From: Psococerastis gibbosa
Taxonomy: Eukaryota > Arthropoda > Insecta > Psocodea > Psocidae
Direction of reading: 5' to 3'
Length of the DNA: 64,000 nucleotides
Assembly: GCA_963971405.1 (NCBI GenBank)
Contig: OZ020490.1
Location: 4,993,897-5,057,896 of the forward strand
The notes under the pieces are model-generated. The model had not been told where the DNA came from. It was given only the letters and a program-made list of their open reading frames with translations, and made no database searches. Positions 1 through 55,277 of this stretch are shown here, piece by piece. Within the stretch, counting starts at the first letter, position 1, and every line of letters starts with the position of its first letter. The translations under genes and the position numbers were made by a program.

Positions 1-41
1 GATCTCGCTGGGTTCATGCTGCAGCCTGTGAACTCACCTCC
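1..41 (-). CDS. Aquaporin A exon 6, cut by window edge (second NPA box)
   Basis: Acceptor ATTACAG is followed by codons for [14 protein letters not shown], the second NPA box with its filter arginine. The window ends inside the exon. The same exon in copy B is 18252-18335. Confidence 0.88.
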
Positions 42-3000
42 CTGTAATTAATAAATATTATTTTAAATAATAGTAATTAATAAGAAGCGTAATAATAGTA
101 ATTTTTGAAGGGCTTTTTATGGACCCAGGCCTACTGTGGCCCATAGGTCCCTTGTCCATTGAAAACGACCCTATGGACTACAGATACATTGTAGTATTAT
201 ATGGTATACATAACACTTATTAACTTTGGTTCAAGAGGTAACCTCCTCGTTATTAACGAAATTAGAGGATATGGAAAAAACTGGACTTGGCGGGATTCTA
301 CGCCTAACCGGGGCGTCGTCTTAACCGCTGGACCACAAGCCCCTACAAGTCCAGTTATCGCCAAATCCTCTACTTATTCTCTAATTGGCATGATTCGTGT
401 TGCTAGACAGGTTAGGCGCCCATTCCACATACGTACAACGTCAATGAAAATTATGAAATTGAAGGACATTTCAATTTTACTCTATGCCATTGTTAAAATT
501 GATCAATGATCAATTGATAATAGAGTAAAATCACAAACAATGAAACAAACAATCTAAAATTAAAAAATGGCGTCATGTGATATGAAAAGTACAACTATTT
601 TAATTGATTTCTCTAAAAAGAAAGCATTTCTGTGCAAAAATTATAATAAGGATTAAATAATAAGGCGACGAAGAAAACAAATACAATTTCAAGAAGCAAA
701 TGCAAACAAATTTCAAAAATTTGGCGCATACGTTTCAATTGAAAATTGTCAATTTTTGAAAAAAACATATGGAATGGCCGCCATCAATGAGAAATTGAAA
801 TGTCCTTCAATTTCATAATTTTCATTGACGTTGTACGTATGTGGAATACCCGCCTTAGCACAACTACACAACTATCTAACCGAACAGGTCTGTGAACTTA
901 CATAATTGCATAAAGGCAATGCTTTATTCAATACATTGTAGTATTATATGGTATATATAACACTGACATCAAATTAACTTTGGTTGAAGTAGTAACCTCC
1001 TCGTTATAAACGTTGTTGTTGTTTCTAACGCCTGCTTTCAGTATTTCTGCTTTAAGCAACCCTGTCAGCCTGGCGGGGGGAGTGAGTCTGTTTGTTAACT
1101 TGAGGCACCCTAAGGGCAGACTCTTTCACCTCGGGGAAAGGGGAGTTGACTAACAGGGTGGACTTCCTGATTATGGTGGATTCCGAACCACTTGGGGAAC
1201 ATGGTAAAGTCACACGATTAAATTGGAGGTGATCAGGACTCGACTTATACTGCCTAAGCGCGTTATCATGTCCCACCAGGTTCCCCTGCCAACGCTGTGC
1301 ACACTACCAAGTTGCCGCAGTTTGAAACATGCTCTGCTCTAATGAAATCAACATGGTAAGGCCGTTGGCATTTTTGGCCGTTATAAACGAAATCCGAGGA
1401 TATGGACTACGGACATTATTTGTATTGTTTCCGTATGAATTTTTGACCATTGGCAAACTGATGTACTTTCTCGATGTCAACAGACACCGGCTACAAGCGA
1501 TAATGAACAAGCCGAGACAAGCTTACCATCGACGCTATGAGACACAGGAAGTAGATTGGAGCCATAACCCTCGTGGGGATAAACGAACTCTTTTGTTTTT
1601 TACTTCGAATTATGGTGATGTGAATTTCGGGGCATACTACGTCCTGGCAATGTGTCAGCGGATTGTGATTATGGTGATAATTATGGTTAGGCGCGACATA
1701 TTCTATTTTATATTCTGTATATATCGCAGGCCCGTACCCAGGATTTAATTTAGGGGGGGGGCAAGAACAATTTTTTTTTATAAATGGTAGGTACATCCGT
1801 AGTGATTTTAGTAGTTTTAGCTAAAATTCTTACATTATTTATTATGTTTTATCAAATTTAGTGGAGGCTCTGGCCCCCTTAGCCCCCCCCCCTCTGGAGT
1901 ATATCGTTGACTCACCCCGGCATACGCCAATGTAGATATGGCAAAGCCGAATTTCAATGAGACAGAATCGTGCGCCCCATTGTTGGGGTCCCATATGGAG
2001 CAGACGACAAGTGAAAGAATGGTGGTCATTATGAATTCATACAGAAATCCCTCGGCTACTGTTATCCGGTTGCTGAGCATAGTTGAGCAGTCGTGGCCAG
2101 TGATGACACCGTGTGTGAGACTCTGTAATTAGAGAATACTATTAACCGGTTAATGAGTGTAGTTGAGCAGTGTGGCCAATGCTAGTATTGTGTGTGAGAC
2201 TCTGTAATAAGAGAATACTATTAACCGGTTAATGAGTGTAGTTGAGCAGTGTGGCCAATGCTAGTATTGTGTGTGAGACTCTGTAATAAGAGAATACTAT
2301 TAACCGGTTAATGAGTGTAGTTGAGCAGTGTGGCCAATGTTAGTATTGTGTGTCATACCCTGTAATAAGAGAAAGATTATGTTTAGTGAGACCGTGCAGC
2401 ATGTAATAAGAGAAACCTTACATTTTGTGAGAGACCCTGCTGCCTGTAATAGGAGAGAACTGTTAAAGAACTGTTATCCGGTTATTGAGTGTAGTTGAGC
2501 AGTCGTGGCCAGTGCTGATCATCCGGTTACTGATTGATATTGAGAAGTCGTGGCCAGTGCTGATATGTGTGAAACCCTGTAATAAGAGAAACCTTACATT
2601 GTGTGAGAGACCCTGCTGCCTGTAATAGGCGAGAACTGTTTTCGGTAATTGAGTGTAGTTGAGCAGTCGTGGCCAGTGTTGATAATCCGGTTACTGATTG
2701 CTGTTGAGAAGTCGTGGCCAGTGCTGATATTGTGTGTGAAACCCTATCATAAGAGAATACTATTAACCGGTTACTGAGCGTAGTTGAGCAGTGTAGCCAA
2801 TGTTGATATTGAGGGTGATACCCTGTAATAAGAGAAACCTTACATTGTGTGAGAGACCCTGCTGCCTGTAATAGGAGAGAACTGTTATCCGGTTACTGAG
2901 TGTAGTTGAGCAGTCGTGGCTAGTGCAGGTCATCCGGTTACTGATTGCTGTTAAGAAGTCGTGGCCAGTGCTGATGTGTGTGAGACCCTGTAATAAGAGA

Positions 3001-3950
3001 AACCTTACATTGTGTGAGAGACCCTGCTGCCTGTAATAGGAGAGAATTGTTTTCGGTTATTGACTGTAGTTGAGCAGTCGTGGCCAGTGCTGATTATCCG
3101 GTTACTGAGTATAGTTAAGAAGTTGTGGCCAGTGCTGATATTGTGTGTGAAACCCTATAATAAGAGAATACTATTAACCGGTTACTGAGCGTAGTTGAGC
3201 AGTGTAGCCAATGCTGATATTGAGGGTGATACCCTGTAATAAGAAAATCATTACATTGTGTGAGGGACCCTGCTGCGTGTAATAAGAAAGAAAAAAAGTC
3301 TTTATTTTCGAAGTGGGCAAAGTTTGGGCCTTTCGGCCCACTCTTACAATTAACCATGAAGTTTTATCAAAATCGGATAATATTACGGAAGTTACAGTGC
3401 TTCCTAAATTCTATATGCATACATACATACATTTATATTTGTACATACTATATGTACATGCATATATACAATTATATATATAACATTTTGAATGGGGGGT
3501 GGGTTTAAACTTCGGGGGTCATGAAAGGAAAAATTGTGAAGATACATATGTTGCAGAAGTCGATTATTGGTCGCCGTCTCAATAGGTAGACGAATCTCCC
3601 TAAAATCCTATGTTTCCTTCGTTATAGGTTCTGATTAATTTCAACTAACCTTTAGAATTCCGTAGCCAAGGGTGGAACCCACAACTTGAGCGACCATATA
3701 GTTTATTGCCATCGGAATGGACAGTTTATTGAGAAAAAGACCACAAACTGTTATGGCTGGGTTTATATGGCCACCACTGTTGTGGCACACTACCTGTAAA
3801 AGAAATTAAAGCAAAAAAAAAGCTATTACTTTCATTATTTCCTGATGAAATGGGCCTAGGTCTACTAATAGTGGCAGGGTTTTGCCTAGGGGGACATGTA
3901 CTGCTTCGACCTTGCTCAAAAACCATAATGGCGCACTTCATAGGATAGAC

Positions 3951-3985
<35 letters not shown>

Positions 3986-6900
3986 GGGAGAAAATGAAAT
4001 CTTCTGTTTCTTAACTTCTTAGGGGCAGACTCCTTCCCCCTCACCAAGAATGGGAGTTGACTGACAGGGAGGACCTCCTGATTATAGTAGATTCTGAACC
4101 ACTTGAAGAACATAGTAAAGTCACACGATTAATTCGGAGGTGACCAGGACTCGACACGCATTTAGATTGGCTGGCAATCACAGCGCGTTGTCTTGTCCCA
4201 CCATGTTCCCCTGCAATGCAGTACCATGTTAGCTGGAGTTTGGAACAAGCTACGTTCTGGTGGATTCATAATGGTATAGCCGTTGGCTTATTGATATTGT
4301 GTCCGTTTGCCATGGGCAATCAGCTTCTCGATGTCAATTCACACCTTGTGATAATGGACAAGCTGAGGCAAGCTTATTATCGTCACAATCGTTATTAGGG
4401 CTGGCTTTGAAAAAAAAAAAAAAAACCGATTTGGTTTTGTAGCGTTGTTGTCGCTTGGCCCGGTGGTTGAAGGATTGGCCGACGGGGTAATTCTCGCCGT
4501 TACCAACAGGCCCATCATGGCGATTTTAATCCCGGGGGTAATATAATGCCATGTCACGTGATGGTATTAATACAATGGGGTTCATTTGTGGCGTCATTTT
4601 GTAGATGGCAGCACCAGTTGCAATGATATCAAAACGTTGATTTTTCCATAAGCCTCAATACTATTTTAAAATGATTTTTAATTACGTATTATTTTAAAGT
4701 GATATTTTTCTATAAATCATGAAGAATATATATATTTAATTATATGCAGCGAAATAAGGTCCAGGCATGGTAAAATATTATAAAAAATATTAAAAGAATT
4801 AATTAGATGCTAAGAGCTTAGTTTTCGCATGCAAACGGCGGCCATTTTGAATAATATGGATATCGTTTTGTCGTCAGCGAACCTAGTGACCAAAACTGTC
4901 CCTACAGAACCTCATTGTTTAAAATAAATGAATTGCAAATTTCTGATTTTTTTAATTCTTTATGTTGGTAATCGTCGCAAGAGTGGTAAGCGCGGAAAAT
5001 TCAAATTGTGTCTATTTAAACAATTCTATTTAAACAATTTTCTTCATTTTTTCTGCCTTAGATTTAGACAAATTATTTATAATCCTTAACATATTAATTC
5101 AAAATTAACACTTGTTTATTTCTAGGGCGATATGTGTTTATATTTGCTATTTATATTAGCTACAGCAGTCATTTCGGTTCTTCAGTATTGGTGTATTGTC
5201 AACATCACAATTAAAAATATTATGAAATTTGCTGTTCATTTATTTTAAACAATTGAATAAACACCATCACGTGACATAGTATTATATTACCCCCGGTATT
5301 ATAATAATACCACATCGCCATGAGCAGGCTGCAGGAACGCCCGATCGCTCATGCGAGTGCGGACAACTGCAGGGCGACGGCCACCTTCTGGTCTGCCCGA
5401 GACTGGGAGAAGCTGTGTCCCAGACGAATCTTTTGGACGCCAACGACAAGGCTATCCAGGCCGCAACGTTTTGGATCAACGTGTCCTAGGCCCGGACACG
5501 TTAAGTAAGTAAGTATCGTCACAATGCGACAGGCGACAACGTGACTTGACCAAGTTCGGCTACCTATTAAGTCATTAATTGTACAATGTAACAGAGTTAT
5601 TTATATATTTCTTTATTCTAGAAGATTGGCTGCCGAAATATCAAATCCTAGTAATGTCCTAACATATTTGTAAATTTTTCTTCATCAAGTGAAAACTTTC
5701 TTTCACTATACTTTATACTACAGTATATCGTAGTTTACCTGAATGGCTATAAATGCGGCAAGTCCAAAAAACAGGCATATTCCCATGTGATTATCCTGTG
5801 TTCTAACGCCCAAACAACCTACAAACATTAATATCCCTGTGCCGGTCATCTGTAAAAAACAAAAAACCTATAGACTAAATACAAATTTTAAGCCACTGTT
5901 TAGTGAAATTAATAATTAATATAAGTCCTATTGTAGCCTATTTTTAACTTTTCAACATTTTATACTTCAAAATTTAATTCACTCTGTACCTTTAAGAAAA
6001 TAATTAAACAATATCTTAGATAACGCTTGAGACTCTCCGGTATGGTAATGGTGATGATAATGGACCCCCTCCCCCCTGCATATATTTTATCCTTTTCCCC
6101 TCTTTTCTCCTTTTTTTTCCTGACATGTCAATAAAGTCGTTTTCATTTCAAATTAGGATAAAACATATGCCCACTATCTCATTACCTATGTACTGTATGT
6201 GATTTTTTATTCTTATTACTAATTTGTGGGATACAGAGTTATATTTTGATTTTTTATTGTGTTAATTGAATTAAATTTTTTTCTTTCGTTCTTTCCTAAT
6301 TATATTTATTATTTAAATTTATTACATATATTGTTTAAAATTTAAATTAAATTAAAATTGCTCTAGATGGCTTTGAGTTCGGAAAAGTTACTATAACAGG
6401 CTGCATTTTGAGATTTCGGCTCATCAGTACGCAATACTATTGAAAAGGGGTAAAATACGATTTATAAGATATTTTAACTGTATATACTAAAAAAGTAAAG
6501 TAAATTCGTGTCGGGGTGGTACTACCCGTGGTACAGGAGTTTTCAGGTTGCATCAACAGCCTCCTGTTTAACCTATCGACAGTCAGGGAAGACTGCCGGG
6601 ACCGCCGGCTTTACATGCCCTCCGACGCATTGTAGTCAGAAGATAAATAATTGTACAACTAGAAAATTTTGGCATTCGGGTGGGACTCGAACCAGTGACC
6701 TTCTGGATGATAGTCCGAGTCGTTACCTCTACGCCATTCTGACTACTACTGTATATACTAATAACCCTTGATTTACTAACTGTTCGAACTGCAAAATGCT
6801 AATTTTTCAGAAGAGCGTTCCAAAGTTCCTACACTTCAGCAGTGGTGTAAATAACTTCTGCTGCCCCCCCCCCCCCCCCGCAAGACCTTTGATGCGCCCT

Positions 6901-9900
6901 ACCCAGTGGCGTAACGATAGGGAAATTTTTTAGATTTTGCAGACGAAGACTTTATTAAGTTATTACTTTTTCTTTAAATAAATAGGCCCAAAATAGCGGC
7001 TTTCTACAAAATCGTTGGGCTTTAAGGCTTTAAGTGGTCACCTTATTCGCTTAGTGAATGTGGCGCCCCTGGACAAACTCTTGATACATTGCGGTTCCAA
7101 TTTTTTTTTTTTTTTAAATTTAATTTTCAATCAAAGAAAGACCTCTCAAATGTGGCAACGATAGAAAAAATGTCAATAAGCCTATAAATCCAAATAATTA
7201 CATTATATACTGTTATTTTTATTTTTAAATGTTTAATTTGTTTCATGCTGTATTTTTTTTTGTTTGAAATATGCATGTTGATTATTTTTTAACCAACTCG
7301 GCGCCCCCAGGCGATATGGCTCTACCTTTTAGGAGGGGGGGGGGGTGCGGAACACGACCCCGGTGACCTGACAGGGATCCGCCATTGAATCAAGGAGCGA
7401 ATTAATCTCGTAATCAAGTATAATGACTTTAGTATTATGATAATACTGTACTAGCTATAGTACTACCGTAACGAAAAGTGAGATGACATAAAGCTGTGTA
7501 CCTCTGTTATAAAATATTTGATGTATTTCGTACAAAGAAGATACCGATCGTCCTCCATTCTAAGTGTTCCTTGTACGGCTCCTGCAAAATTAATTATTAA
7601 TTATTTATAAATTAATTATTAATTATTTATACATTAATTATTAATTAATTAATTATTAAGTAATTATGTTGAAATTCCCCGAAACATGGAAAGTCTCTCC
7701 CCACATCACGATTCTTCTGGCGCTTCTCAATCATATGTGGCAGCCCACCGCGCAGTGGCGTAGGCAGAACTTTTATTAGGCGAGGTTCAGTTTTCTTGCA
7801 ACATCAATATTATAAGTACCTACCACGGAACAATGGCGTAACAATCGATTTTCAAAGGGCGGGGGGTGGTGTTTCATTTGGCACCCCCCCCCCCATTTTC
7901 GTACAAATGTAGAGGAAGAGGTTCTCGCGGACGTTATATTAGGGGGCATTATCTTAATGTCTTAATTTAAAAAAAAAATCTATCATATGAATTTACACCC
8001 CGCTCCCCCCCCCCCCCCGTTGTTCCGCCATAGACTAGCATTAAACATCCAGGGCTAATAAGGGTCTGCTGGAGCTGGATAGAACATACAGTATGTGCAT
8101 CGGGTGATATCCCTGCTCATTACTTTTCTTCATTACAATTTAGAATTTGGGGACTGCTGCTCAGAAAAAATAAATAATTAAATTAATATTGACTTCTCTT
8201 CTTCTATTACTAAGCCAACCTAGCGGAGTTAGGGCTGCCCTCTCTTACACTCAACTAGGAAGACCCGGGACCGCCTGCTTTACATGCCCTCCGAAGCATG
8301 GCCAGAAAATGTAAGTGCAGTGTAAGTACTCGAACCAACAACCTTTCGGGGTTAGTCGAAGTTAGTACCACTACTCTACATGTCTTGTCAGAAAAGGTAA
8401 GTCGTATGTTGTAAGCCACGGGGTTTTAAACCTGAACGTTCTTCTGCCGGGAGCCCTCAGACTGAAGGGTGACGGCAGGGGGGGGGGGCACTGCTCCCTC
8501 CTAAACCATCCTCTACCTCCCCCCCCCCCCTAGAGCCTGCTTTGGGAGCCCTGCCCCCACTTAGAGTTTTAGCGTTGGTACGGCATAACATGCATAGTGT
8601 GATTTGAGAACAATTGTTACCTATTTAAAAATAAAAGAAGAGGGAGAAATAATATTGTGCTTGAAACTAACTAGGCTTAAAAATATTAAAAAGAGCGGTA
8701 AGACGGTAAGACATGTATTTCACTTGTCTTATTTTCTTCATTTGTGAATTAAAAAATGATGAGATTTGTCTTTTGATGAGACTATTACGTAGATATTTAA
8801 CTTATCTATTATAAAATAAGTTATAATATGGTTGCAGACATCAATAATAAGTCTCTACCATATTATAACTTAATTTATAATAGATAAGTTAAATATCGAC
8901 ATAAGCAAAAATCTCATCATTTTTTAATGCACTGTACTAATATTACATCTACATGCTAAGCTATAATCATTCGTTTTCGAAATGACTTTTTAAGGGGGTG
9001 GGAACCTACCTCCTGCCCCCCCCCCTCCCCCTAGGGTTGCCAGATTTACAAAACATAAAAACCGGACAGGGACTGAATGGGTCATTCTATGTTGTCTAAC
9101 TTTTTCTAAAAATAGGTCATTTTATATAGTTTTAAATTTAGTGAATTTTGAGGAATTTTCATCATACTACATAAGTAGCTAGTATATCAGATTTTTAAAT
9201 CTACCGGTATTTCGTTCTATTTTCTAGAAACTTTTTTTTCACACTCGAGCGAAAAACCCGGACAAAGCAATAAGCATGGTCCGGTCAAATATTACCTTTT
9301 TCACTGGTCAGTGGTACAAAAAACCGGACACCTGGCAACCCTCCCCCCCCCCGCCGCCCCTAGCTGAAAACCTGGCGCCACCCTTGTTCAGTCTTCCTGT
9401 CATCCCTTGGATTATATAACATGCAGAAAGCGTTGTTTTTCGTTGCTCATCACTTTGTCAAAGTATGTTAGTTTCTGTTTCGTAACTTTCACTTTAACCT
9501 GCTGTAGTGATGCGCCAAGTTTAGCTAGGTGGTCTGCATTCTCATTTCCAGTCACACCTATGTGACTCGGAATCCACTGAAGTGCAATTGTCCAGCCAAC
9601 AGCAGCCATTTCGTCGAGTAGTCGCCTACATCGGATGGTGCGAGGACAGTCAGTTTCGTTATTGCTGGAGAGGGCGAGGATAGCAGCATGGGAGTTTAAA
9701 GTGAAAACTACACTCTCCTCTGCGAGATCACTAATAAACTGCACATGTGCTAATCAAGTAAAAACTCGTCATGCCACAGCTGCACAGGGCAAGAAGTGGG
9801 AGAGGCTAGTAAAGGACGGGCCAATCAACCGAAACCTCCCCCGCCACGTGTTTGTTGCCTCCTTCAGAGCCCTCACTGGACACGACTACCTAGCTTCACA

Positions 9901-10291
9901 CCTACATAGGATAGGCGTATTCGACTCGTCCTCATGCCCCCTGTGTGGACACCCCTCAATGGTGGCCGATCATCTCTTTGGATGCCCGGGGCTTGCAGAC
10001 GCTCGAGACTCGTCGGTGAACACAGGAGAATATCTCCTCGCTGATCTATACTGGCTTGCGCGACACCAAATGGCAGAGATGCCAAGAGTGGGCATTGGAT
10101 AATAATAATAATGTTTCGTAACTGTCAGCAGGAGCTTCAGCTATAAGCTATTGCACAACCCCTTTGGTGCACCAATCCACTTAGGCTACATGCTATAGTA
10201 TTTCTAATTACTTAGGTCTTAGAGTACCAACTTACGTCTTATCACGCCGCCCTGGCCTGACATTGTGGGTGAATGTGTTAAAGATTTGGAC
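1..10291 (-). CDS. Aquaporin gene, tandem copy A (partial, six coding exons visible)
   Basis: Major intrinsic protein family: a six-helix membrane channel for water and/or small solutes. Coding exons on the minus strand are 10236-10263 (ATG at 10263), 7502-7581, 5739-5849, 3650-3793, 1916-2122 and 1-41. All visible junctions are GT-AG and the phases are the same as in copy B. The protein starts MSGQGGVIR. Exon 4 has the first NPA box ([10 protein letters not shown]), exon 5 carries helix 4 and most of helix 5, and exon 6 begins the second box ([10 protein letters not shown]) before the window edge cuts it. The last exon must lie left of the window. Introns hold SINEs, a LINE insertion with inverted 5' end, nested MITEs and a splice-site minisatellite. 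No stop or frameshift is seen in the visible exons. Subfamily is inferred: the motifs around the second box resemble insect entomoglyceroporins. Confidence 0.88.
268..350 (-). repeat. tRNA-derived SINE fragment (family T2)
   Basis: On the minus strand it reads GGGGCTTGTGGTCCAGCGG then TTAAGACGACGCCCC, a tRNA-like head with A-box-like TGGTCCAGCGG. The same head is at 17988-18040 on the plus strand. Confidence 0.6.
412..858. mobile_element. Fold-back MITE, PIF/Harbinger-like, TTA duplication
   Basis: Inverted arms of about 65 bp start GGCGCCCATTCCAC on the left and end GTGGAATACCCGCC on the right. TTA flanks both ends, consistent with the 3-bp TWA duplication of PIF/Harbinger elements. It shares its terminal motif with elements at 13268, 37108 and 42814. 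Confidence 0.7.
1015..1369 (-). mobile_element. 5S-rRNA-derived SINE
   Basis: The minus-strand head GCCAACGGCCTTACCATGTT matches the 5S gene start (GCCAACGGCCATACCATGTT) found at 51-55 kb. The body has TGTGCACAGCGTTGGCAGG and the tail is a short (CAA)n run. Near full length. Confidence 0.8.
1378..1545 (-). repeat. Dispersed repeat family R copy
   Basis: Shares the core around TCGATGTCAAC with copies at 4300, 21775, 25379, 32185, 36620 and 41215. Class unknown; no Pol III box or coding potential is convincing. Confidence 0.45.
1916..2122 (-). CDS. Aquaporin A exon 5 (helices 4-5)
   Basis: 207 bp (69 codons), phase 0 at both ends, acceptor AATTACAG, donor GTGAGT. It encodes loop C, helix 4 ([20 protein letters not shown]) and most of helix 5 (LKFGFAISTLAYAG). 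It is one codon shorter than in copy B. The minisatellite that begins right at its acceptor is built from copies of this exon's own 5' end. Confidence 0.9.
2123..3290 (-). repeat. Minisatellite of 3' splice site plus exon-5 start, copy A array
   Basis: About 13 imperfect units abut the acceptor of aquaporin A exon 5. The first units are spaced exactly 79 bp (same motif at 2123, 2202, 2281). Read on the minus strand each unit has a T-rich stretch, an acceptor-like TTATTACAG, then a diverged copy of the first ~66 bases of exon 5, including the part encoding TGHDCS and LSNR. Distal units alternate between two subtypes. The end near 3290 passes into a dispersed 3'-end repeat (3297-3355). Confidence 0.85.
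3650..3793 (-). CDS. Aquaporin A exon 4 (first NPA box)
   Basis: 144 bp, phase 0 at both ends, donor GTTAGT. It encodes loop B with the NPA signature ([13 protein letters not shown]) and helix 3 ([20 protein letters not shown]). This is the clearest family signature in copy A. Confidence 0.92.
4004..4287 (-). mobile_element. 5S-rRNA-derived SINE (tail truncated)
   Basis: The 5S-like head ends at 4287 (GCCAACGGCTATACCATTAT on the minus strand), followed by the conserved body. It lacks the tail part seen in longer copies. Confidence 0.72.
4516..5328. mobile_element. MITE with ~50-bp inverted ends, itself holding another MITE
   Basis: The left end has CATGGCGATT, CCCGGGGGTAATATA and CACGTGATGGT; the right end has ACCATCACGTGACAT, TATATTACCCCCGG and ATCGCCATG. 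Related ends occur at 42280-42625 and near 26100-26205. Confidence 0.65.
4578..4916 (+). mobile_element. ~340-bp MITE nested in the MITE at 4516-5328
   Basis: Ends AATGGGGTTC and GAACCTCATT form short inverted repeats. A second copy lies in opposite orientation at 47388-47728, which defines the element's limits. Confidence 0.7.
5739..5849 (-). CDS. Aquaporin A exon 3 (helices 1-2)
   Basis: 111 bp, phase 0 at both ends, acceptor TTACAG and donor GTAAAC. It encodes the rest of helix 1 (MTGTGILMFVGCLG) and helix 2 ([15 protein letters not shown]). The Phe just before the GL pair occupies the helix-2 position of the aromatic/arginine filter. Confidence 0.9.
6505..6755 (-). repeat. tRNA-derived SINE (family T4)
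   Basis: The minus strand has A-box-like TGGCGTAGAGGTAACG and a B box GGTTCGAGTCCC at tRNA-like spacing. The 3' part shares CATGCC and CCGGGAC blocks with family T1. Confidence 0.6.
6900..8050. repeat. hAT-like MITE remnants with G/C runs
   Basis: Repeated CAGTGGCGTA / CAATGGCGTAAC ends at 6904, 7752 and 7832, next to long G or C runs, resemble the hAT-like termini resolved at 31284 and 59503. Exact limits and duplications are not clear here. The part near 6905-7060 is related to 55440-55600. Confidence 0.4.
7502..7581 (-). CDS. Aquaporin A exon 2
   Basis: 80 bp between acceptor GCAG and donor GTACAC. It encodes the cytoplasmic N-terminus running into helix 1 (MEDDRYLLCTKYIKYFITE). It completes the split Arg codon of exon 1 and ends in phase 0. 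It aligns without gaps to copy B exon 2 (22783-22862). Confidence 0.85.
8188..8394 (-). repeat. tRNA-derived SINE (family T1)
   Basis: Minus strand: GACATGTAGAGTAGTGG head, B-box-like GGTTCGAGTACT, body with CATGCTTCGGAGGGCATGTA, and tail GGTTGGCTTAGTAATAGAA. Confidence 0.7.
8749..8932. repeat. Long AT-rich palindrome
   Basis: Inverted arms of about 85 bp (ATTAAAAAATGATGAGATTT on the left, its complement on the right) around a short loop. No terminal duplication recognised; a fold-back element is likely. Confidence 0.6.
9487..10112 (+). mobile_element. LINE insertion with inverted 5' segment (RNase H and C-terminus)
   Basis: Flanked by GTTTCGTAAC at 9477-9486 and 10113-10122; copy B has a single GTTTCGTAAC at 23020-23029 and no insert. 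The minus-strand part (to ~9744) encodes an RNase H end (IALQWIPSHIGVTGNENADH). The plus-strand part (9770-10099) encodes the following C-terminus with zinc-knuckle-like CPLCGHPSMVADHLFGCP. The 3' end is a short (ATA)n tail. The two halves are consecutive pieces of one protein in opposite orientation. Confidence 0.8.
10236..10291 (-). CDS. Aquaporin A exon 1 (5' UTR end plus ATG)
   Basis: Acceptor TTTCAG ends at 10292. The ATG at 10263-10261 encodes MSGQGGVIR plus one base, followed by donor GTAAG at 10235. The acceptor implies at least one more noncoding exon upstream. The matching exon of copy B is 23451-23515. The start was chosen because it is the first ATG in the exon and the reading frame continues through exon 2 in both paralogs. 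Confidence 0.75.
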
Positions 10292-18000: not shown

Positions 18001-21000
18001 CGGTTAAGACGACGCCCCGGTTAGGCGTCGATCGCGTGGGGCAAAGACCAGTTTTTCTATATCCTTTAATTTCTCTTTCCTAACTTATTAATAATATAAG
18101 AATAAATTATGGCATGAAAAGGAAACTAAAAATTTTGAATTTTGACAACTTTTGAGTTTTTCCATTATAAGAAGACCTAATTGCCAACTGGAGCTCAGTT
18201 TATGAGTGATTATTATACAGTATATAGACTGCCAATGTTTTATCAACTCACCCAATGGTTTGCCCATTGACCAGTCCAAACTGCTGGTCCAAACGATCTC
18301 GCTGGATTCATGCTGCAGCCTGTAAACTCACTTCCCTGCAATGAATAAATAAAAATTAACAATAATTATTATTATTATTAATAAGAAGGGGAATAACCTA
18401 AAGCCAAAGGGTGTAAAAAACCAAATCAAATTAAATTAAATGTCAATTGCAGAGCCATAAATGAGATGTTATAGAGTAGTAAAAATGTTCCTCTACATTT
18501 TGATGCACATTAATAACCCGTCACTAGCACAACACATTATTGAACTTGATCCGTAAAAAAAATAGCGGACACCTAGGATGTCAGCATATGGTGGTGAATA
18601 GGTCGTGGTAGTTGTTATTGTTGTTTCCAACGCCTGCTTTCAGAATTTCTGCTTTAAGCAACCCTGTCAGCCTGGCGCGGGGACTGAGTCTGTTTATTAA
18701 CTTGAGGCACCCTAAGGGCAGACTCCGTCACCTCGGGGAAAACTGACAGGGTGGACCTCCTGATTATAGTGGATTCCGAACTACTCGGGATACATATTAA
18801 AGTCACACGATTAAATTGCAAAAAAAGCAACGTAAGATCAGACTCTTTTACCTCGGGGAGAAGGGGAGTTGCCTGACAGGTGGACCTCCTGATTATAGTG
18901 GATTCCGAACTACTTGGGATACATATTAAAGTCACACGATTAAATTGCAAAAAAAGCAACGTAAGATCAGACTCTTTTGCCTCGGGGAGAAGGGGAGTTG
19001 CCTGACAGGTGGACCTCCTGATTATAGTGGATTCCGAACTACTTGGGATACATATTAAAGTCACACGATTAAATTGGAGGTGACCAGGACTCGATACGCC
19101 CGTAGACGGACTGGTATATATAGTCTCAGCGCGTTGTCATGTCCCACCATGTTCCCCTGCCACACTACCAAGTTTGCCGCAGTTGTGCTCTCATGGAATC
19201 AACATGGTAAGACCGTTGGCAGGGGTCGTGTTAGTGAATCGTGTCAAAACTGCGGTGTTCGATGGGGTAACAGTCAAAAACTAAAACTAAATATAAGTAA
19301 TTTATACTGACCCGCCCCCCCCCCTCTCTGAGTTCCTGGGTACGGCCTTGGCCCTTGGGGCTTAGAATCAATCAAATGCTAATTGTAAGTTTTGACCCTA
19401 TTCACCACTATTCACGGGGTATGCGTATGTTTACGAAACCCTGCGTATTAGTCTTTTGTTTTTTACTTTAAGCTTTGGCATGTGAATCCAGTGACATACT
19501 ATATGTCCCGGCAATTAAGCGGAATGTGATTATACTGCAACAAGGATGAAGACCCATCGGCAGACCGAGGACAAGGAAAGGATTGGACAACTCGCCGGAG
19601 CAAAAGGGAAAACAATGGCCAAGCTCAAGCATCCGACCGGGGCGAGTTCAGGAAATGGATCCGGGGTGACCCCGCGGCACTAAGGGGGGAAGAAGGAGAA
19701 GAAGAAGTGATTATACTGATAATTATGGTTAGCTATTTTACTATCGTTGACTCACCCCGACATACGCCAATGTAGATATGGCTAAGCCGAATTTCAATGT
19801 GACAGAATCTATAAGCTGCCCATTGCGGGGATCCCATATGGAGCAGACGACCAGTGAAAGAATGGCCGTCATTATGAATTCATACAGAAATCCCTCGCCT
19901 ACTGTTATACGGTTGCTGAGCGTAGTTGAACAGTCGTGGCCAGTGCTGATGTTGTGTGTGAGACCCTGTAATAAGAGAAGATTGTTAACCGGTTACTGAG
20001 TGTGGTTGAGAAGTCGTGGCCAGTGCTGATATCGTGTGGGATACCCTGTAATAAGAAGACTGTTAAACTGTTACTGAACGTAGTTGAGCAGCAGTCGTGG
20101 CCAGTGCTGATGTTGTGTGTGAGTCCCTGCAGCTTGTATATAATAAGAGAAGATTATTAACCGGTTACTGAGTGCAATTGAGCAGTCGTGGCCAGTGCTG
20201 ATATCGTGTGGGATACCCTGTAATAAGAAGACTGTTAACCGGTTACTGAGCGTAGTTGAGCAGTCGTGGCCAGTGCTGATGTTGTGTGTGAGTCCCTGCA
20301 GCCTGTAATAAGAGAAGATTGTTAACCGGTTACTGAGTGCAATTGAGCAGTCGTGGCCAGTGCTGATATTGTGTGGGATACCCTGTAATAAGAAGACTGT
20401 TCACCGGTTACTGAGCGTAGTTGAGCAGTCGCGGCCAGTGCTGATGTTGTGTGTGAGTCCCTGCAGCCTGTAATAAGAGAAGATTGTTAACCGGTTACTG
20501 AGTGCAATTGAGCAGTCGTGGGCAGTGCTGATATCGTGTGTGATACCCTGTAATAAGAAGACTGTTAAACGGTTACTGAACGTAGTTGAGCAGTTGTGGC
20601 CCGTGCTGATATTGTGTGTGTGATACTGTAATAACAGAAAACATGGCTTTCGCCTCATAGTGGTACTTCTCGCCTCATGGTGCGTGTCTCTACATATCAA
20701 GTGATCAGAGACCTATCGCAGCTCAACACATGGATTACCTACAGAGGCGACTGTGGAGAATATAAGGATACATACATTCAGATTCTTGTATGCGCGATTA
20801 ATCCTTAAAAGCAAAAAATATAAATAATCTACAGACGCTAATATTTCAATGGGAATAGTTTATTTATTTATTTAATGTTTATTAGAAGCTAAGGCACTAT
20901 ATAGCCGGGTATTGTCATCCGCCATGTTGTATCCCATATTTCCTATAAGGTAAGTATCGTAAGAAAAGTAAAAGATTGAAAAATATTGAAAAAAACTAAT

Positions 21001-23515
21001 ATACGTTTTAGTAATTTTTTATTAAACACTTCCCTAATTGGTAGCACGTTTTTTAATGATAAATAAAGAACGATGAATTTCTAAAAATAACTAGGTAATC
21101 ACCCAATGCTTGACTTATAATGGATACAATATGGCGGATGACAATACCTGTCTAATATAGAGCCCTAGCCCCTATTAGATGCCGAATTAGGTTTCTTCAA
21201 CCCCATTGAGCAGCCTTATCACACATTATTAAGTCTTTCATGTGAAACATAAAATATTAAATCACTCTAAGCGTAATTCAGTCTAGTACTTCACAAACTT
21301 GAGTACCCACGAAAGTTTCAAATCCGTCACGTCAGAAACGTTCAGAAAGGCGCTTCCGAAAGTCCGAAGTATTGGGAATAGTGTAAACAGAGGGACAAAA
21401 AGTGAAACTTCAAGTTACAAAAAAGAGTGAAACCTGGTTATAATAATAAGTCAAAGACTGTAAGGGCTTACAAACACGACTTAGACAAAATTCTATGTTT
21501 CCTTCGTTATAGATTCTGAGTAGGCTAATTCCAACTAACCTGTAGAATTCCGTAGCCAAGGGTTGAACCCACAACCTGAGCGACTATAAAGTTGATTGCC
21601 ATCGGAATGGTCAGCTTACTGAGAAAAAGACTACAAACTGTTATGGCTGGGTTTATATGGCCGCCACTGTTGTGGCACGTTACCTGAAAAAAAAATCTAT
21701 AAATATATATAAAGTAAAAAGAGCTAGCCCTAGTGGGTAGACTCCTTCACCCCTGGGAAAATGGGAGTTGACTGATGGGGTGGCATTTTGGCCATTGGCA
21801 CACGTCCTTGAAGTCAACCCACGCCGGCGGCAAGCGATGTTGGACAGCTGAGACAAGCCTATCATTGACACAATGCAACAGGCGTCAGAGTGATCTGACT
21901 AAGCTCGGGTACCTATTACTTGATTGTATAATAAACAGATTTATTTATATATTTATTACGTTAGTCTGGATGATTGGCGTCCGAGATACCAAACGCCAGT
22001 AATATCCTAATATTTTTGTAAATGTTTCTTCAAGTGAAAACTTTCATACGGCACTATTAATAATATAATAATATAATACCATACTATTTTACGCTATAGT
22101 TTACCTGAATGGCTACAAATGCGGCAAGTCCAAAAAACAAGGCTATTCCCATGTGATTATTCTGTGTTCTAACGCCCAAACAACCTAAAAATACTAGTAC
22201 CCCCGTGCCGATCATCTGAAATAAAATAAAAATTAGTTTCTTTAAATGCAAACTTTTTGTCACTGTTGAGTGAAAATAATATTATTTAGTGCAAGAAATA
22301 ATAAATATTTTTTTTTATATAAATAAAAATAAAAATAATATAATTTAAAGTATTACAACAGGCCAGCGGCATATAACAATAATAAAATTGTTGGTAGAGG
22401 GACCCCTAAGGATAACCTCTTGCTGGGGTCCCCTTGCGATTAATATGAAATTTTTTAACTGCATACAAGTAATAAAGCACAATACTGTAATAACTTTAGT
22501 ATTATTCACTTATAATACTGTACTGGCTATAGTACTACCGTAATATGACATGTATGTAATGTATGTAATGTAATATAATATGACATGTAGAGTAGTGGAA
22601 CGGACTCCAACTTTTACCACACTTGCTGTATTTTCTGGCCATGCTTCGGAGGGCATGTAAAAGAGGCGGTCCCGGGCTTTCCTAGTTGAGTGTATGAGAA
22701 GGCTTATAGCCCTAACTCCGCTAGGTTGGCTTAGCAATAGAACAAAAAAAGTCTATATTTATTTATTTATAATGCTGCGTACCTCTGTTATAAAATATTT
22801 GATGAATGTCGTGCAAAGAAGATACCGGTTGTCGTCCATTTTAAGTGCTCCTTGTACGCCCCCTGCAAAATTAATTAACGCGATATTAGGTTCAAATTCC
22901 TCAAAACAAGGAAAGCAGTTTCTCCCTTCACGACACTTCTGACGCTTCTCGATCTTCTGAGGCAGTAAAAAGCGTTGTTTTTTTGTTCCTCATCACTTGG
23001 TCAAAGTATGTTAGTTTCTGTTTCGTAACCGTCAGCAGCAGCTCCTGCTATAAGCTATAGCGCATCCTCTTTGGTGCGCCGGCCGATCCACTTACCACTT
23101 ACCACTATAGTATAATGCTTGAAATTCAGAGGAACTTGTAACCAAATTTTATTGTAAGAATGGTAGTTAGGATATATTCATATATTACGTTGTTCTTTGG
23201 TTGTTGTCGGTTGGTTGTTCTTTGGTTGTTAGGTAGGTTTTTTTTTATAAATTTTTAATTATTTAATAAGAAGTTACAATAGGCTATAAACAGTAGGAAT
23301 TTTTGTTGTTGTTGTTTTTTCGCTTTACATTATGTAATATTTATACACATAAGGGCTACGGCTGTGTGATGTAATAAAAAAGTTTTCTATTCTATTTTCT
23401 ATTCTATTCTATGCTATTAGTATTTCTAATTAGATAGAGTACCAACTTACTTCTTATCACGCCGCCTTTGTCTTCTCGGCCTGCCATTGCGGGGGAAGGT
23501 GTTAAGAATTTGGAC
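14917..23515 (-). CDS. Aquaporin gene, tandem copy B (complete, seven coding exons)
   Basis: Complete MIP-family channel of 263 residues. Coding exons on the minus strand: 23451-23487, 22783-22862, 22105-22215, 21540-21683, 19756-19965, 18252-18335 and 14917-15042. All junctions are GT-AG and every phase matches. First NPA box at residues 87-89, second at 204-206 with Arg207. Helices are roughly at 32-52, 58-76, 106-122, 149-168, 178-194 and 223-243. Filter positions by alignment to the family: Phe67, Cys201 and Arg207. The helix-5 position is Ala191 or Tyr192, not the His usual in water-specific channels, which with the [12 protein letters not shown] motif suggests an insect entomoglyceroporin-like channel (inference). 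Loop C has an N-glycosylation sequon (NIS at 129). No disruption is seen, so it is probably functional. It lies about 4.6 kb upstream of copy A in the same direction. Confidence 0.92.
15201..16800 (+). pseudogene. Decayed NACHT-ankyrin gene, antisense in aquaporin B intron 6
   Basis: Intronless STAND NTPase-like gene. Order: N-terminal region (15201-15476), a linker with [21 protein letters not shown] domain with Walker [14 protein letters not shown] (about 15656) and Walker [11 protein letters not shown] (about 15894), a helical region ([15 protein letters not shown] at 16217), then two or three degenerate ankyrin repeats (16435-16790). Damage: in-frame TAG at 15474, a frameshift near 15555, in-frame TAA at 16160, and a frame change or deletion near 16285. 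It may extend to about 17067. It is not expressed as one protein in this allele. NACHT-ankyrin proteins in arthropods are thought to act in sensing or immunity (family knowledge). Confidence 0.78.
17394..17700 (-). pseudogene. Non-LTR retrotransposon C-terminal fragment
   Basis: [20 protein letters not shown] and [18 protein letters not shown] match the C-terminal zinc-knuckle region that follows RNase H in many arthropod LINEs. Confidence 0.65.
17988..18075 (+). repeat. tRNA-derived SINE fragment (family T2)
   Basis: GGGCTTGTGGTCCAGCGG then TTAAGACGACGCCCC, identical in pattern to the minus-strand copy at 268-350. Confidence 0.6.
18252..18335 (-). CDS. Aquaporin B exon 6 (second NPA box)
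   Basis: 84 bp, phase 0, acceptor TTGCAG and donor GTGAGT. It encodes [20 protein letters not shown] then TGQWANHW: second NPA box, LE1 Cys and filter Arg. Confidence 0.92.
18611..19220 (-). mobile_element. 5S-rRNA-derived SINE with a triplicated internal block
   Basis: Tail at the left, 5S-like head (GCCAACGGTCTTACCATGTT) at the right. A ~123-bp block containing GGTGGACCTCCTGATTATAG is present three times (about 18719, 18838 and 18963), joined by GCAAAAAAAGCAACGTAAGA. Confidence 0.75.
19480..19712 (+). repeat. LINE 3'-end fragments
   Basis: 19488-19545 matches the 3' UTR of the LINE at 39447-40166 (CCAGTGACATACTATATGTC, AAGCGGAATGTGATTATACT). 19545-19712 is a second LINE 3' end with GRPRTRKG-like coding remnants and a GAA-rich tail. 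Confidence 0.5.
19756..19965 (-). CDS. Aquaporin B exon 5 (loop C, helices 4-5)
   Basis: 210 bp (70 codons), phase 0. The acceptor CTTATTACAG ends at 19966. It begins [20 protein letters not shown] (loop C) and runs through helix 4 and helix 5 to LAYVG, with donor GTGAGT. The first ~66 bases together with the acceptor are the repeat unit of the adjoining minisatellite. I chose the acceptor at 19966 because it is the one nearest the intact exon and keeps phase 0. Acceptors inside the array are possible alternatives. Confidence 0.85.
19966..20640 (-). repeat. Minisatellite of 3' splice site plus exon-5 start, copy B array
   Basis: About 8 units of roughly 78-91 bp, alternating two subtypes (about 170-bp dimers), abut aquaporin B exon 5. 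Candidate acceptors fall at about 20046, 20127, 20218 and 20296. Minus-strand translation stays open for about 75 codons across the distal units and repeats the loop-C motif ([19 protein letters not shown] and relatives), which shows the units derive from the exon. Confidence 0.88.
20640..20815 (+). repeat. tRNA-derived SINE (family T3), diverged
   Basis: GCCTCATAGTGGTA-like head, then ACCTACAGAGGCGACTG and TTGTATGCGCGATTAATC shared with 24610-24779. Confidence 0.5.
20900..21150. repeat. Inverted repeat with ATATGGCGGATGACAATAC ends
   Basis: The left end carries GTATTGTCATCCGCCATGTT; the right end (21126-21150) carries ATATGGCGGATGACAATACC. A short MITE of about 230 bp is likely. Confidence 0.5.
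21540..21683 (-). CDS. Aquaporin B exon 4 (first NPA box)
   Basis: 144 bp, phase 0. It encodes [18 protein letters not shown] and helix 3 ending GYGILQ. Donor GTTAGT and acceptor TTTTCAG. Confidence 0.92.
21775..22040 (+). repeat. Family R repeat, uninterrupted, aquaporin B intron 3
   Basis: Matches 4296-4389 joined to 5514-5690 in copy A. It is therefore the ancestral intron arrangement. Confidence 0.65.
22105..22215 (-). CDS. Aquaporin B exon 3 (helices 1-2)
   Basis: 111 bp, phase 0. It encodes [18 protein letters not shown] and helix 2 ([15 protein letters not shown]). A tRNA-derived SINE separates it from exon 2; the SINE is absent at the matching place in copy A. Confidence 0.9.
22579..22775 (+). 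repeat. tRNA-derived SINE (family T1) in aquaporin B intron 2
   Basis: GACATGTAGAGTAGTGG head, body with CATGCTTCGGAGGGCATGTA, tail GGTTGGCTTAGCAATAGAAC and TATTTATTTAT. Absent from the matching intron of copy A. Confidence 0.75.
22783..22862 (-). CDS. Aquaporin B exon 2
   Basis: 80 bp, acceptor TTTGCAG, donor GTACGC. It encodes [16 protein letters not shown] and on into helix 1 (FIKYFITE). Confidence 0.87.
23118..23413 (+). mobile_element. 5'-truncated copy of the 56-59 kb LINE (3' UTR only)
   Basis: Same order of blocks as the minus-strand 3' UTR at 55840-56110: GAGGAACTTGTAACCAAATT, AAGGGCTACGGCTGTGTGAT, then (TATTC)n. ATGCT flanks it on each side, a probable short target duplication. 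The matching site in copy A (about 10190) is empty. Confidence 0.78.
23451..23515 (-). CDS. Aquaporin B exon 1 (5' UTR end plus ATG)
   Basis: Acceptor TTTCAG, then ATG at 23487 encoding [12 protein letters not shown] plus one base, then donor GTAAGT. It carries three codons more than copy A. The upstream sequence to about 23700 is also conserved with copy A. Confidence 0.78.
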
Positions 23516-23709: not shown

Positions 23710-24087
23710 TTTGTTTGTTTGTTTCCAACGCATGCTTTCAGCATTTCTGCTTTAAGCAACCCTGTCAGCCTGGCGGGGGGAGTGAGTCTGTTTGTTAACT
23801 TGAGGCACCGTAAGGGCAGACTCCTTCACCTCGGGGAGAAGGGGATTTGACTGACAGGGTGGACCTCCTGAATATAGTGGATTCCGAACCACTTGGAGAA
23901 CATAGTAGAGCCACACGATTAATTCGGAGGTGACCAGGACTCGACACGCACTCAGACTGACTGGTATAGTCTCAGCACGTTTTCATGTCCCACCATGTTC
24001 CTCTGTCAACGCTGTGCTCACTACCAAGTTTGCCGCAGTTTGTAGCTGGCTCTGTTCTGGTGAATTCAACTTGGCATGACCATTGGT
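23710..24087 (-). mobile_element. 5S-rRNA-derived SINE
   Basis: Full-length type copy: tail (AAAC)n on the minus strand, conserved body, diverged head ending near 24087. Confidence 0.72.
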
Positions 24088-27087: not shown

Positions 27088-27444
27088 ACTGTTGTTGTTG
27101 TTGTTGTTTCTAACGCCTGCTTTCAGCATTTCTGCTTTAAGCAACCCTATCAGCCTGGCGGGGGGAGTGAGTCTGTTTGTTAACTTGACGGCAGACTCTT
27201 TCACATCGGGGAAAGGGGAGTTGACTGACAGGGTGGACCTCCTGATTACAGTGGATTCCGAACCACTTGGGGAACATGGGAAAGTCACACGATTAAATCG
27301 GAGGTGACCAGGACTCGACTTATACTGCCTAAGTGCGTTATCATGTCCCACCATGTTCCCCTGCCAACGCTGTGCACACTACCAAGTTGCCGCAGTTTGA
27401 AACATGCTCTGCTCTAATGGAATCAACATGGTAAGGCCGTTGGC
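27088..27444 (-). mobile_element. 5S-rRNA-derived SINE
   Basis: Near full length with (CAA)n tail at the left and head GCCAACGGCCTTACCATGTT at the right. Confidence 0.8.
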
Positions 27445-34579: not shown

Positions 34580-35830
34580 TGATCACCTTACCGGTTTTTC
34601 CCCTGTCGTCTTCATATGGTGACCAGATGCGAATATAGCAAATAAGCAGTCGCCCCTTTCGGTTAGTACCCGTGTTGAGTTACGACGCGCCTCTGATCGC
34701 ATGGTGTGTAGAGACTCGCAAAAGTTGATTTGATTTTGGTTAATCGCGTACAAACAATTTAATGAATGTATCCGATGAACCTCTTCAATCGCCTCACTAT
34801 GTAACCTAATTGGTACTTGTGCCGAGTCACGACACATCTCCGATCACAGGGTGTGTTGAGACGAAAAGGTCACCATATGGTCGAATAAGCCGTCTCCTCT
34901 TTCGGTTAGTACCCGTGTTGAGTTACGACGCGTCTCTGATCGCATGGTGTGTAGAGACTAGCCAAAGTTGATTTGATTTTGGTTAATCGCGTACAAACAA
35001 TTTAATGAATGAATACGAATACTTCTTCAATCGCCTCACTATGCAACCTAATTGGTACTTGTGCCGAGTCACGACACATCTCCGATCACAGGGTGTGTTG
35101 AGACGAAACGGTCACCACATATGGTCTCCTCTTCCGGTTAGTAACCGTGTTGAGTTACGACGCGTCTCTGATCGCATGTTGTGTAGAGACTAGCCAAAGT
35201 TGATTTGATTTTGGTTAATCGCGTGCAAACAATTTAATGAATGAATACGAATACTTCTTCCATCGCCTCACTATGTAACCTAATTGGTACTTGTGCCGAG
35301 TCACGACACATCTCCGATCACAGGGTGTGTTGAGACGAAACGGTCACCACTCCTCTTTCGGTTAGTAACCGTGTTGAGTTACGACGCGTCTCTGATCGCA
35401 TGGTGTGTAGAGACTAGCCAAAGTTGATTTGATTTTGGTTAATCGCGTACAAACAATTTAATGAATGAATACGATTAACTTCTTCAATCGCCTCACTATG
35501 CAACCTAATTGGTACTTGTGCCGAGTCACGACACATCTCCGATCACAGGGTGTGTTGAGACGAAACGGTCACCACATATGGTCTCCTCTTTCGGTTAGTA
35601 ACCGTGTTGAGTTACGACGCGTCTCTGATCGCATGGTGTGTAGAGACTAGCCAAAGTTGATTTGATTTTGGTTAATCGCGTACCAACAATTTAATGAATG
35701 AATACGATTAACTTCTTCAATCGCCTTACTATGCAACCTAATTGTTACTTGTGCCGAGTCACGACACGTCTCCGATCACAAGGTATGTTGAGACTTGCAC
35801 AAGTAAAACCACGCTACCACCTTGCCACCG
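34580..35830 (-). repeat. Tandem array of a dimeric T3 SINE-like unit
   Basis: Five units of 224-243 bp; the marker GTTGATTTGATTTTGGTTAA recurs at 34724, 34967, 35199, 35423 and 35656. Each unit holds two diverged half-units (CTCCGATCACAGGGTGTGTT and CTCTGATCGCATGGTGTGTA) related to the SINE at 24610. Differences between units are few, so expansion is recent. Confidence 0.82.
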
Positions 35831-51171: not shown

Positions 51172-51290
51172 AGCCAACGGCACGTGGTGTTCCCAAGCGG
51201 TCACCCATCCAAGTACTAACCACGCTCGATGTTGCTTAACATCGGTGATCGGACGAGAACCGGTGTGTTCAACATGGTATGGCCGTTGGC
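51172..51290 (-). rRNA. 5S rRNA gene, minus cluster copy 1
   Basis: 119 nt, start GCCAACGGCCATACCATGTT, end GCCGTTGGCT. Carries a change to GATGTTAAGCAAC and GAGCGTGG; together with copy 2 a slightly diverged subtype. Confidence 0.9.
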
Positions 51291-51382
51291 GATATTTCTA
51301 CTGTTGTTATAAATACTTCAGTATCACATTAATTTCAAATATTAATAAAAAAAATTAAAAAAAATGATGGCCATAAAAAAGT

Positions 51383-51501
51383 AGCCAACGGCACGTGGTG
51401 TTCCCAAGCGGTCACCCATCCAAGTACTAACCACGCCCGATGTTGCTTAACATCGGTGATCGGACGAGAACCGGTGTGTTCAACATGGTATGGCCGTTGG
51501 C
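51383..51501 (-). rRNA. 5S rRNA gene, minus cluster copy 2
   Basis: 119 nt, 211 bp from copy 1. Shares the GATGTTAAG change. TATAAATA-like sequence is not immediately upstream; the spacer matches that of the plus cluster. Confidence 0.92.
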
Positions 51502-51593
51502 GATATTTCTACTGTTGTTATAAATACTTCAGTATCACATTAATTTCAAATATTAATAAAAATAATTAATAAAAATGATGGCCATAAAAAAGT

Positions 51594-51712
51594 AGCCAAC
51601 GGCACGTGGTGTTCCCAAGCGGTCACCCATCCAAGTACTAACCACGCCCGATGTTGCTTAACTTCGGTGATCGGACGAGAACCGGTGTGTTCAACATGGT
51701 ATGGCCGTTGGC
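51594..51712 (-). rRNA. 5S rRNA gene, minus cluster copy 3
   Basis: 119 nt with the majority GAAGTTAAGCAACATCGGGC internal sequence. Confidence 0.94.
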
Positions 51713-51797
51713 GATATTTCTACAGTTGTTATAAATATATCAGTATCATATTATCTTCAAATATAGATAAAAATAACAACGAATGAAAAAAAAATGA

Positions 51798-51916
51798 AGC
51801 CAACGGCACGTGGTGTTCCCAAGCGGTCACCCATCCAAGTACTAACCACGCCCGATGTTGCTTAACTTCGGTGATCGGACGAGAACCGGTGTGTTCAACA
51901 TGGTATGGCCGTTGAC
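51798..51916 (-). rRNA. 5S rRNA gene, minus cluster copy 4
   Basis: 119 nt; starts GTCAACGGCC, with one change in the first stem. The upstream spacer is unlike the array spacer, so this is the array's edge. Confidence 0.9.
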
Positions 51917-54137: not shown

Positions 54138-54256
54138 GCCAACGGCCATACCATGTTGAACACACCGGTTCTCGTCCGATCACCGAAGTTAAGCAACATC
54201 GGGCGTGGTTAGTACTTGGATGGGTGACCGCTTGGGAACACCACATGCTGTTGGCT
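54138..54256 (+). rRNA. 5S rRNA gene, plus cluster copy 1 (array edge)
   Basis: 119 nt. CACATGCTG near the 3' end breaks pairing with the 5' end seen in other copies. The upstream flank is unlike the array spacer and lacks TATAAATATC. Confidence 0.88.
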
Positions 54257-54341
54257 TCTTTTTTTACGGCCATCATTGTATTTTTATTAATATTTGAAAT
54301 TCATACAATATTGATGTATTTATAACAACTTTAGAAATATC

Positions 54342-54460
54342 GCCAACGGCCATACCATGTTGAACACACCGGTTCTCGTCCGATCACCGAAGTTAAGCTA
54401 CATCGGGCGTGGTTAGTACTTGGATGGGTGACCGCTTGGGAACACCACGTGCCGTTGGCT
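54342..54460 (+). rRNA. 5S rRNA gene, plus cluster copy 2
   Basis: 119 nt with GTTAAGCTACATCGG (one change in the internal promoter region). Spacer T run follows. Confidence 0.92.
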
Positions 54461-54546
54461 ACTTTTTTATGGCCATCATTATATTTTTATGAATATATTT
54501 GATATTAATGTGATACTGATGAATTTATATCTATGGTATAAATATC

Positions 54547-54665
54547 GCCAACGGCCATACCATGTTGAACACACCGGTTCTCGTCCGATCACCGAAGTTA
54601 AGCAACATCGGGCGTGGTTAGTACTTGGATGGGTGACCGCTTGGGAACAACACGTGCAGTTGGCT
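54547..54665 (+). rRNA. 5S rRNA gene, plus cluster copy 3
   Basis: 119 nt. TATAAATATC abuts the start; the 3' end reads ACACGTGCAGTTGGCT. T7 terminator follows. Confidence 0.93.
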
Positions 54666-54750
54666 TCTTTTTTTATGGCCATCATTGTATTTTTATTAAT
54701 ATTTGAAATTAATGTGATACTGATGAATTTATAACAACAGTATAAATATC

Positions 54751-54869
54751 GCCAACGGCCATACCATGTTGAACACACCGGTTCTCGTCCAATCACCGAA
54801 GTTAAGCAACATCGGGCGTGGTTAGTACTTGGATGGGTGACCGCTTGGGAACACCACGTGCAGTTGGCT
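54751..54869 (+). rRNA. 5S rRNA gene, plus cluster copy 4
   Basis: 119 nt; one change GTCCAATCACC. Exactly 204 bp after copy 3. Confidence 0.93.
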
Positions 54870-54954
54870 TCTTTTTTTACGGCCATCATTGTATTTTTAT
54901 TAATATTTGAAATTAATGTGATACTGATGAATTTATAACAATGGTATAAATATC

Positions 54955-55073
54955 GCCAACGGCCATACCATGTTGAACACACCGGTTCTCGTCCGATCAC
55001 CGAAGTTAAGCAACATCGGGCGTGGTTAGTACTTGGATGGGTGACCGCTTGGGAACACCACGTGCTGTTGGCT
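54955..55073 (+). rRNA. 5S rRNA gene, plus cluster copy 5
   Basis: 119 nt; majority internal sequence, 204 bp spacing, T7 terminator after the gene. Confidence 0.94.
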
Positions 55074-55158
55074 TCTTTTTTTACGGCCATCATTGTATTT
55101 TTATTAATATTTGAAATTAATGTGATACTGATGAATTTATAACAATGGTATAAATATC

Positions 55159-55277
55159 GCCAACGGCCATACCATGTTGAACACACCGGTTCTCGTCCGA
55201 TCACCGAAGTTAAGCAACATCGGGCGTGGTTAGTACTCGGATGGGTGACCGCTTGGGAACACCACGTGCCGTTGGCT
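55159..55277 (+). rRNA. 5S rRNA gene, plus cluster copy 6
   Basis: 119 nt; GTACTCGGATGGG change. The downstream spacer diverges, so this is the last unit. Confidence 0.93.

Follow-up and report, generated by a model that had tools for sequence, protein, structure and literature searches.

A minisatellite of probable 'mirage' type, built from copies of an intron/exon boundary, in two neighbouring aquaporin genes of Psococerastis gibbosa

Two aquaporin genes and the arrays in front of their fifth exons

The window, by which the whole 64-kb stretch of DNA under analysis is meant, carries on its minus strand two neighbouring aquaporin genes, A and B, for which gene models of up to six exons were built (Table 1). 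Gene A extends from near 10.2 kb, where a probable first exon retains the ATG with a 9-nt gap relative to copy B, to exon 6 at the very beginning of the window. The reading frame is open throughout exons 2-6 in A (208 codons) and in B (209 codons), and these exons match the Pfam MIP profile with E values of 3.2e-45 and 4.9e-46, respectively, and contain both NPA motifs (HINPA and SMNPARS). Divergence between the genes over exons 2-6 amounts to a dS of 0.175 and a dN of 0.099; the dN/dS of 0.57, as a sequence-derived estimate, speaks for open frames and is no strong argument that both genes are constrained. Exon 5, with a length from the true acceptor of 207 nt in A and 210 nt in B, is followed in A by the donor GTGAGT from 1915. 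As already noticed in the preliminary description, it opens with loop C and is the exon which the array adjoins, as judged from its translation and from the alignment of copy B to aquaporin-5, in which the loop C part shows zero added residues.

Besides these genes, the window contains two oppositely oriented 5S rRNA clusters about 2.2 kb apart, at 51172-51916 on the minus strand and 54138-55277 on the plus strand, with four and six full-length genes, respectively, and a 232-bp tandem array of 4.9 copies with 93% matches at 34649-35794. A repeat of about 350 bp is dispersed in introns and spacers (1012-1370, 4003-4286, 18614-19221, 23719-24086 and, by eye, about 27100-27440), and is tandemly enlarged at 18743-19076 (129 bp, 2.6 copies).

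Table 1. Positions within the window of the aquaporin exons and of the arrays adjoining exon 5
Feature	Position	Strand	Basis or remark
Aquaporin A, exon 6 start	1..41	-	second NPA motif; exits the window, remainder in L040
Aquaporin A, exon 5	1916..2122	-	phase 0, 69 codons; translation, exon model, Pfam MIP match, aquaporin-5 alignment (made with copy B)
Three consecutive 79-bp units adjoining exon 5 of A	2123..2359	-	tandem-repeat and profile searches
Composite outer array A	2360..3248	-	6 full, 4 half, 4/5 short units; 411-bp higher-order repeat
Microexon-like cassettes (acceptor, 22 nt, GTAAGG donor) in short units	3008, 2843, 2597, 2421	-	
Outermost degenerate short unit of A	3250..3287	-	weak match, E 0.18; also by eye
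Aquaporin A, exon 4	3650..3793	-	first NPA motif; exon model
Aquaporin A, exon 3	5739..5849	-	exon model
Aquaporin A, exon 2	7502..7581	-	exon model
Aquaporin A, probable exon 1	10236..10263	-	alignment to copy B exon 1 region; boundaries hand-counted
Aquaporin B gene, exons 1-6	18252..23487	-	exon model, Pfam MIP
Aquaporin B, exon 6	18252-18335	-	
Aquaporin B, exon 5	19756..19965	-	70 codons
Sister array, aquaporin B	19966..20642	-	8 full units upstream of exon 5; 165-bp higher-order repeat
Aquaporin B, exon 4	21540-21683	-	
Aquaporin B, exon 3	22105-22215	-	
Aquaporin B, exon 2	22783-22862	-	
Aquaporin B, exon 1	about 23451-23487	-	

The array in intron 4 of gene A, beside exon 5, is real and not a product of chance. 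On the minus strand, the stretch from about 3287 down to 2123, immediately before exon 5, consists of tandem copies of the intron's end joined to the exon's start. A full unit takes about 14 nt (TTCTCTTATTACAG) from the former and about 65 nt from the latter, with TTATTACAG-like acceptors within the units. A profile built from the two real intron/exon boundaries of A and B and run over the window gave 29 matches, the sole one outside the arrays and exons having an E value of 1.0, while the best full units reach 1.3e-20 in A and 2.1e-24 in B; the derivation of the units from splice acceptor and exon start, as initially proposed, is borne out. In A, the profile recovers the exon and, according to our own sorting into classes, nine full, four half and five short units, the half units being about 45 bp long and devoid of an acceptor and the short units, of about 43 bp, combining an acceptor with roughly the first 20 nt of the exon; an extra degenerate short copy near 2400 was seen by eye only. 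The preliminary picture of a unit of about 79 bp repeated about 13 times against exon 5, each with an acceptor and 66 exon bases, thus holds for the tandem arrangement, its adjacency to the exon and the content of the full units, but not for a regular series of 79-mers nor for the half and short units. Equally, its extent of 2123..3290 needs to be trimmed, as the outermost full unit begins at 3248 and only the degenerate fragment (E 0.18) reaches 3287. Among the three units nearest to the exon, the first and second differ at 1 of 79 positions and the third differs from the second at four.

Copies outside the arrays were not found among the best candidates in the insect's own genome, where the matches, at least 15, all fall into arrays A and B and the exon starts adjoining them; unrelated repeats elsewhere, put forward in the preliminary description as the source that would overturn its reading, are therefore unsupported. 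Derivation of the exon itself from a dispersed repeat was considered and is equally unsupported, with genome matches confined to the arrays and exon starts and a loop C that aligns normally to aquaporin-5.

Tandem copies that overlap the coding match were looked for in 61 loci, comprising 22 aquaporin, 9 sugar transporter and 30 mitochondrial carrier loci with 13 overlapping pairs, and were present in three, all of them aquaporins: A, B and a third gene at C1:7.377 Mb. The latter possesses its own 89-bp boundary duplication (L034:1266-1434; 1.9 copies, 93% alike), which joins 47 nt of intron end to 42 nt of the start of an NPA exon that differs from the exon concerned in A and B; splicing at the upstream acceptor of this gene would lengthen the exon by 89 nt and change the frame, and the resulting frame is stop-free in the 74 codons read. 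In the 39 other surveyed loci no boundary duplication was counted, a weak negative, as the true exon edges are not known there. Two further repeats were excluded, namely an intronic one beside another aquaporin exon (L009), the copies of which contain neither acceptor nor exon, and a 45-bp coding stretch (L041) with its second copy 257 bp on, beyond the stop codon.

Common marks and probable separate turnover of the two arrays

Arrays A and B stand at the equivalent boundary, directly upstream of exon 5, and in B the unit at 20161 has a degenerate acceptor. In the alignment of units and exons, column 88 is T in 17/17 full units and C in both exons, and an insertion GC[A/T]GCAGG right behind the acceptor AG is common to the short A units and alternate B units. 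Because of these two common marks, the sequences suggest that the founder duplication predates the split of the A and B genes and was followed by separate turnover. As a less simple alternative, conversion between the two genes following their split could in principle account for the marks as well. The mean identity of units, 0.85 in A and 0.87 in B, is only slightly higher than that between the arrays (0.83), and in a FastTree unit tree deep support is weak and the units are not cleanly divided by gene. The near-identical neighbours in A and the higher-order repeats of the arrays fit local turnover.

Upstream acceptors and the weighing of explanations

Upstream of the true acceptor, 20 sites resembling acceptors, 13 in A and seven in B, were picked by our own motif and pyrimidine filter, and the frame was followed from each as far as the exon 5 donor. 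Every one of them leads to a premature stop (13/13 in A, 7/7 in B; 20/20 altogether), in 19 cases before the true exon and in one (B, 20045) inside exon 5, while the true acceptors give open frames. A lengthened loop C is thereby ruled out for the 20 acceptors tested, so that of the initial expectation that use of an upstream acceptor in A lengthens or shifts loop C only the shift can hold. The stops do not imply selection, since shuffled extensions produce them about equally often: in 300 shuffles for each array, dinucleotide-preserving where the shuffling walk succeeds and otherwise single-base, all acceptors ended in stops in 96% (A) and 94% (B) of cases, with means of 12.96/13 and 6.94/7. 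Selection for premature stops is thus unsupported.

Upstream sites have 10-12 pyrimidines per 16 positions, against 10 at the true acceptor of A and 12 at that of B, and motifs resembling a branch point, under a loose pattern, accompany 10/13 of them in A and 5/7 in B. For the true acceptors, the nearest such pattern match lies at -23, TTAAT in A and TTAAC in B, in the part of the last unit that derives from the exon; in A, an AG is present at -18. By such simple measures, applied to sequence, the true acceptors are not set apart from the upstream ones, so that sequence alone leaves the predicted success of the last acceptor unexplained.

A minisatellite of the 'mirage' type with a founder older than the gene split, separate turnover thereafter and splicing only or almost only at the exon-proximal acceptor is considered the probable explanation. 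The last approximately 14 nt of intron 4, with pyrimidine tract and AG, together with the first approximately 65 nt of exon 5, would have been tandemly duplicated once before the split of A and B. The copies would have become intronic because the spliceosome stayed with the acceptor nearest to the donor of the exon, and slippage or unequal exchange within each gene may subsequently have led to growth, loss and rearrangement and thereby to the 411-bp pattern of A and the 165-bp pattern of B, presumably without the arrays acquiring a function. Most likely, only or almost only the exon-proximal acceptor is used, as predicted from the exon of normal length (207 or 210 nt) which it yields, compared with the mRNA with a premature stop expected from the upstream ones. 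Under exon definition, the short distance to the exon's own donor would favour the last acceptor, which is why this acceptor can be expected to win.

A contribution of the arrays to expression, with some transcripts taking upstream acceptors and the resulting premature stops lowering or tuning aquaporin output, is unlikely. Such a decoy would be in accord with the stops behind all 20 acceptors tested, with the similar apparent strength of upstream and true acceptors and with the presence of an array at the equivalent place in both sister genes; the stops, however, are at the level of chance in the shuffled extensions, the equivalent place is explained by common origin, and splicing is reported to be undisturbed in the lancelet mirages. 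Distinctly unlikely is a function of the arrays, retained in both sister genes, as a set of rival 3' splice sites, in which the choice of acceptor would set the share of premature stops and the aquaporin dose, the number of units would be a heritable dial and the 22-nt cassettes would be nascent exons. That new exons or introns could arise from the array, with its short units in A serving as microexons or as a new intron position as has been proposed for the lancelet globins, is very unlikely, even though the succession of CAG, 22 nt and GTAAGG occurs four times in array A and a model of intron gain from mirages has already been published. Against it, the four cassettes seem to go back to a single event, array B had zero matches to the donor pattern applied, and 22 nt entail a frame shift unless three cassettes are used.

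Equally, the array might be thought of as a store of loop C variants which recombine into the exon and speed up the change of the loop, a highly improbable reading. In gene A, exon 5 starts with an A rather than a G, and hence with Ser rather than Gly; among full units, only the two nearest have this base as well, which can be seen as the one sign of exchange between exon and array. At columns 48, 50 and 54, however, exon A is unlike 17/17 full units, whereas exon B matches 17, 17 and 15 of the 17, and at column 81 exon A matches 1/17, which points to exon A and its array having mostly evolved apart. Furthermore, the start of exon 5 is no more divergent between A and B (9/66) than the other aligned exonic bases (59/560; Fisher p 0.41), which leaves a faster change of loop C through exchange with the array unsupported. 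Collapsed or multiplied repeat units in the assembly, finally, are an extremely improbable source of the pattern: the unit number rests on one haplotype of one assembly, but two differently organised arrays are present in two genes, the units differ on average by about 15% in A and 13% in B, and the genome paper gives a QV of 60.4 for the primary assembly.

Relation to mirages of lancelets and other splice-site repeats

The preliminary description was aware of no system in which a minisatellite multiplies a 3' splice site together with a coding start next to the true exon, a view that is superseded by the published 'mirage' minisatellites of lancelets and by related cases. Mirages have been reported in the globins BflGb6 and BflGb9 and in Adh3, with TnC and PGBD5 added by the paper on PGBD5. 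The BflGb6 array repeats an intron's 3' end together with the 5' part of the exon in tandem units of 150-160 bp, which are 81-100% identical and number six or three in two haplotypes. The authors of the globin work take the Adh3 data and their own RT-PCR to suggest that regular splicing is not interfered with, and splicing is again called undisturbed in the paper on PGBD5.

Other repeats that touch upon splice sites are related cases. The minisatellite of human IFI6 (6-16) contains several splice donor sites that are reported to be used in transcripts (Turri 1995, via a citing paper); it resembles arrays A and B in units that offer repeated splice sites, but the sites are used donors there and putative acceptors here. 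Internal tandem repeats in human genes of segmental duplications change the lengths of exons and introns between recent paralogues, with cryptic splice sites that can become active, and differ from arrays A and B in not being defined by the copying of one acceptor and exon start. Among the matches listed for mirages, acceptor minisatellites and psocid aquaporins in the literature, there was no insect case.

As judged from their sequence, two anatomical features of mirages are present in arrays A and B. Like the lancelet arrays, they are composed of tandem units that span the boundary and adjoin the real exon, and splice signals are kept in many but not all units, the exceptions being the four half units without acceptor in A and the degenerate unit at 20161 in B. 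Unlike those of lancelets, the arrays reside in an insect host, with units shorter than the 150-160 bp of BflGb6; they are common to two sister genes and have a higher-order structure, and they are known from the sequence of one haplotype, whereas splicing and haplotype variation were examined in lancelets. The phenomenon would thus be one already known from lancelets which arrays A and B extend to an insect, Psococerastis gibbosa. If true, mirages leave the lancelets for an insect host in which one is apparently old enough to have been inherited by two sister genes, and the two arrays, differing in the number and order of their units, would offer a natural test not only of the choice of the spliceosome among near-identical acceptors, but also of the proposed role of such arrays as seeds of new introns.
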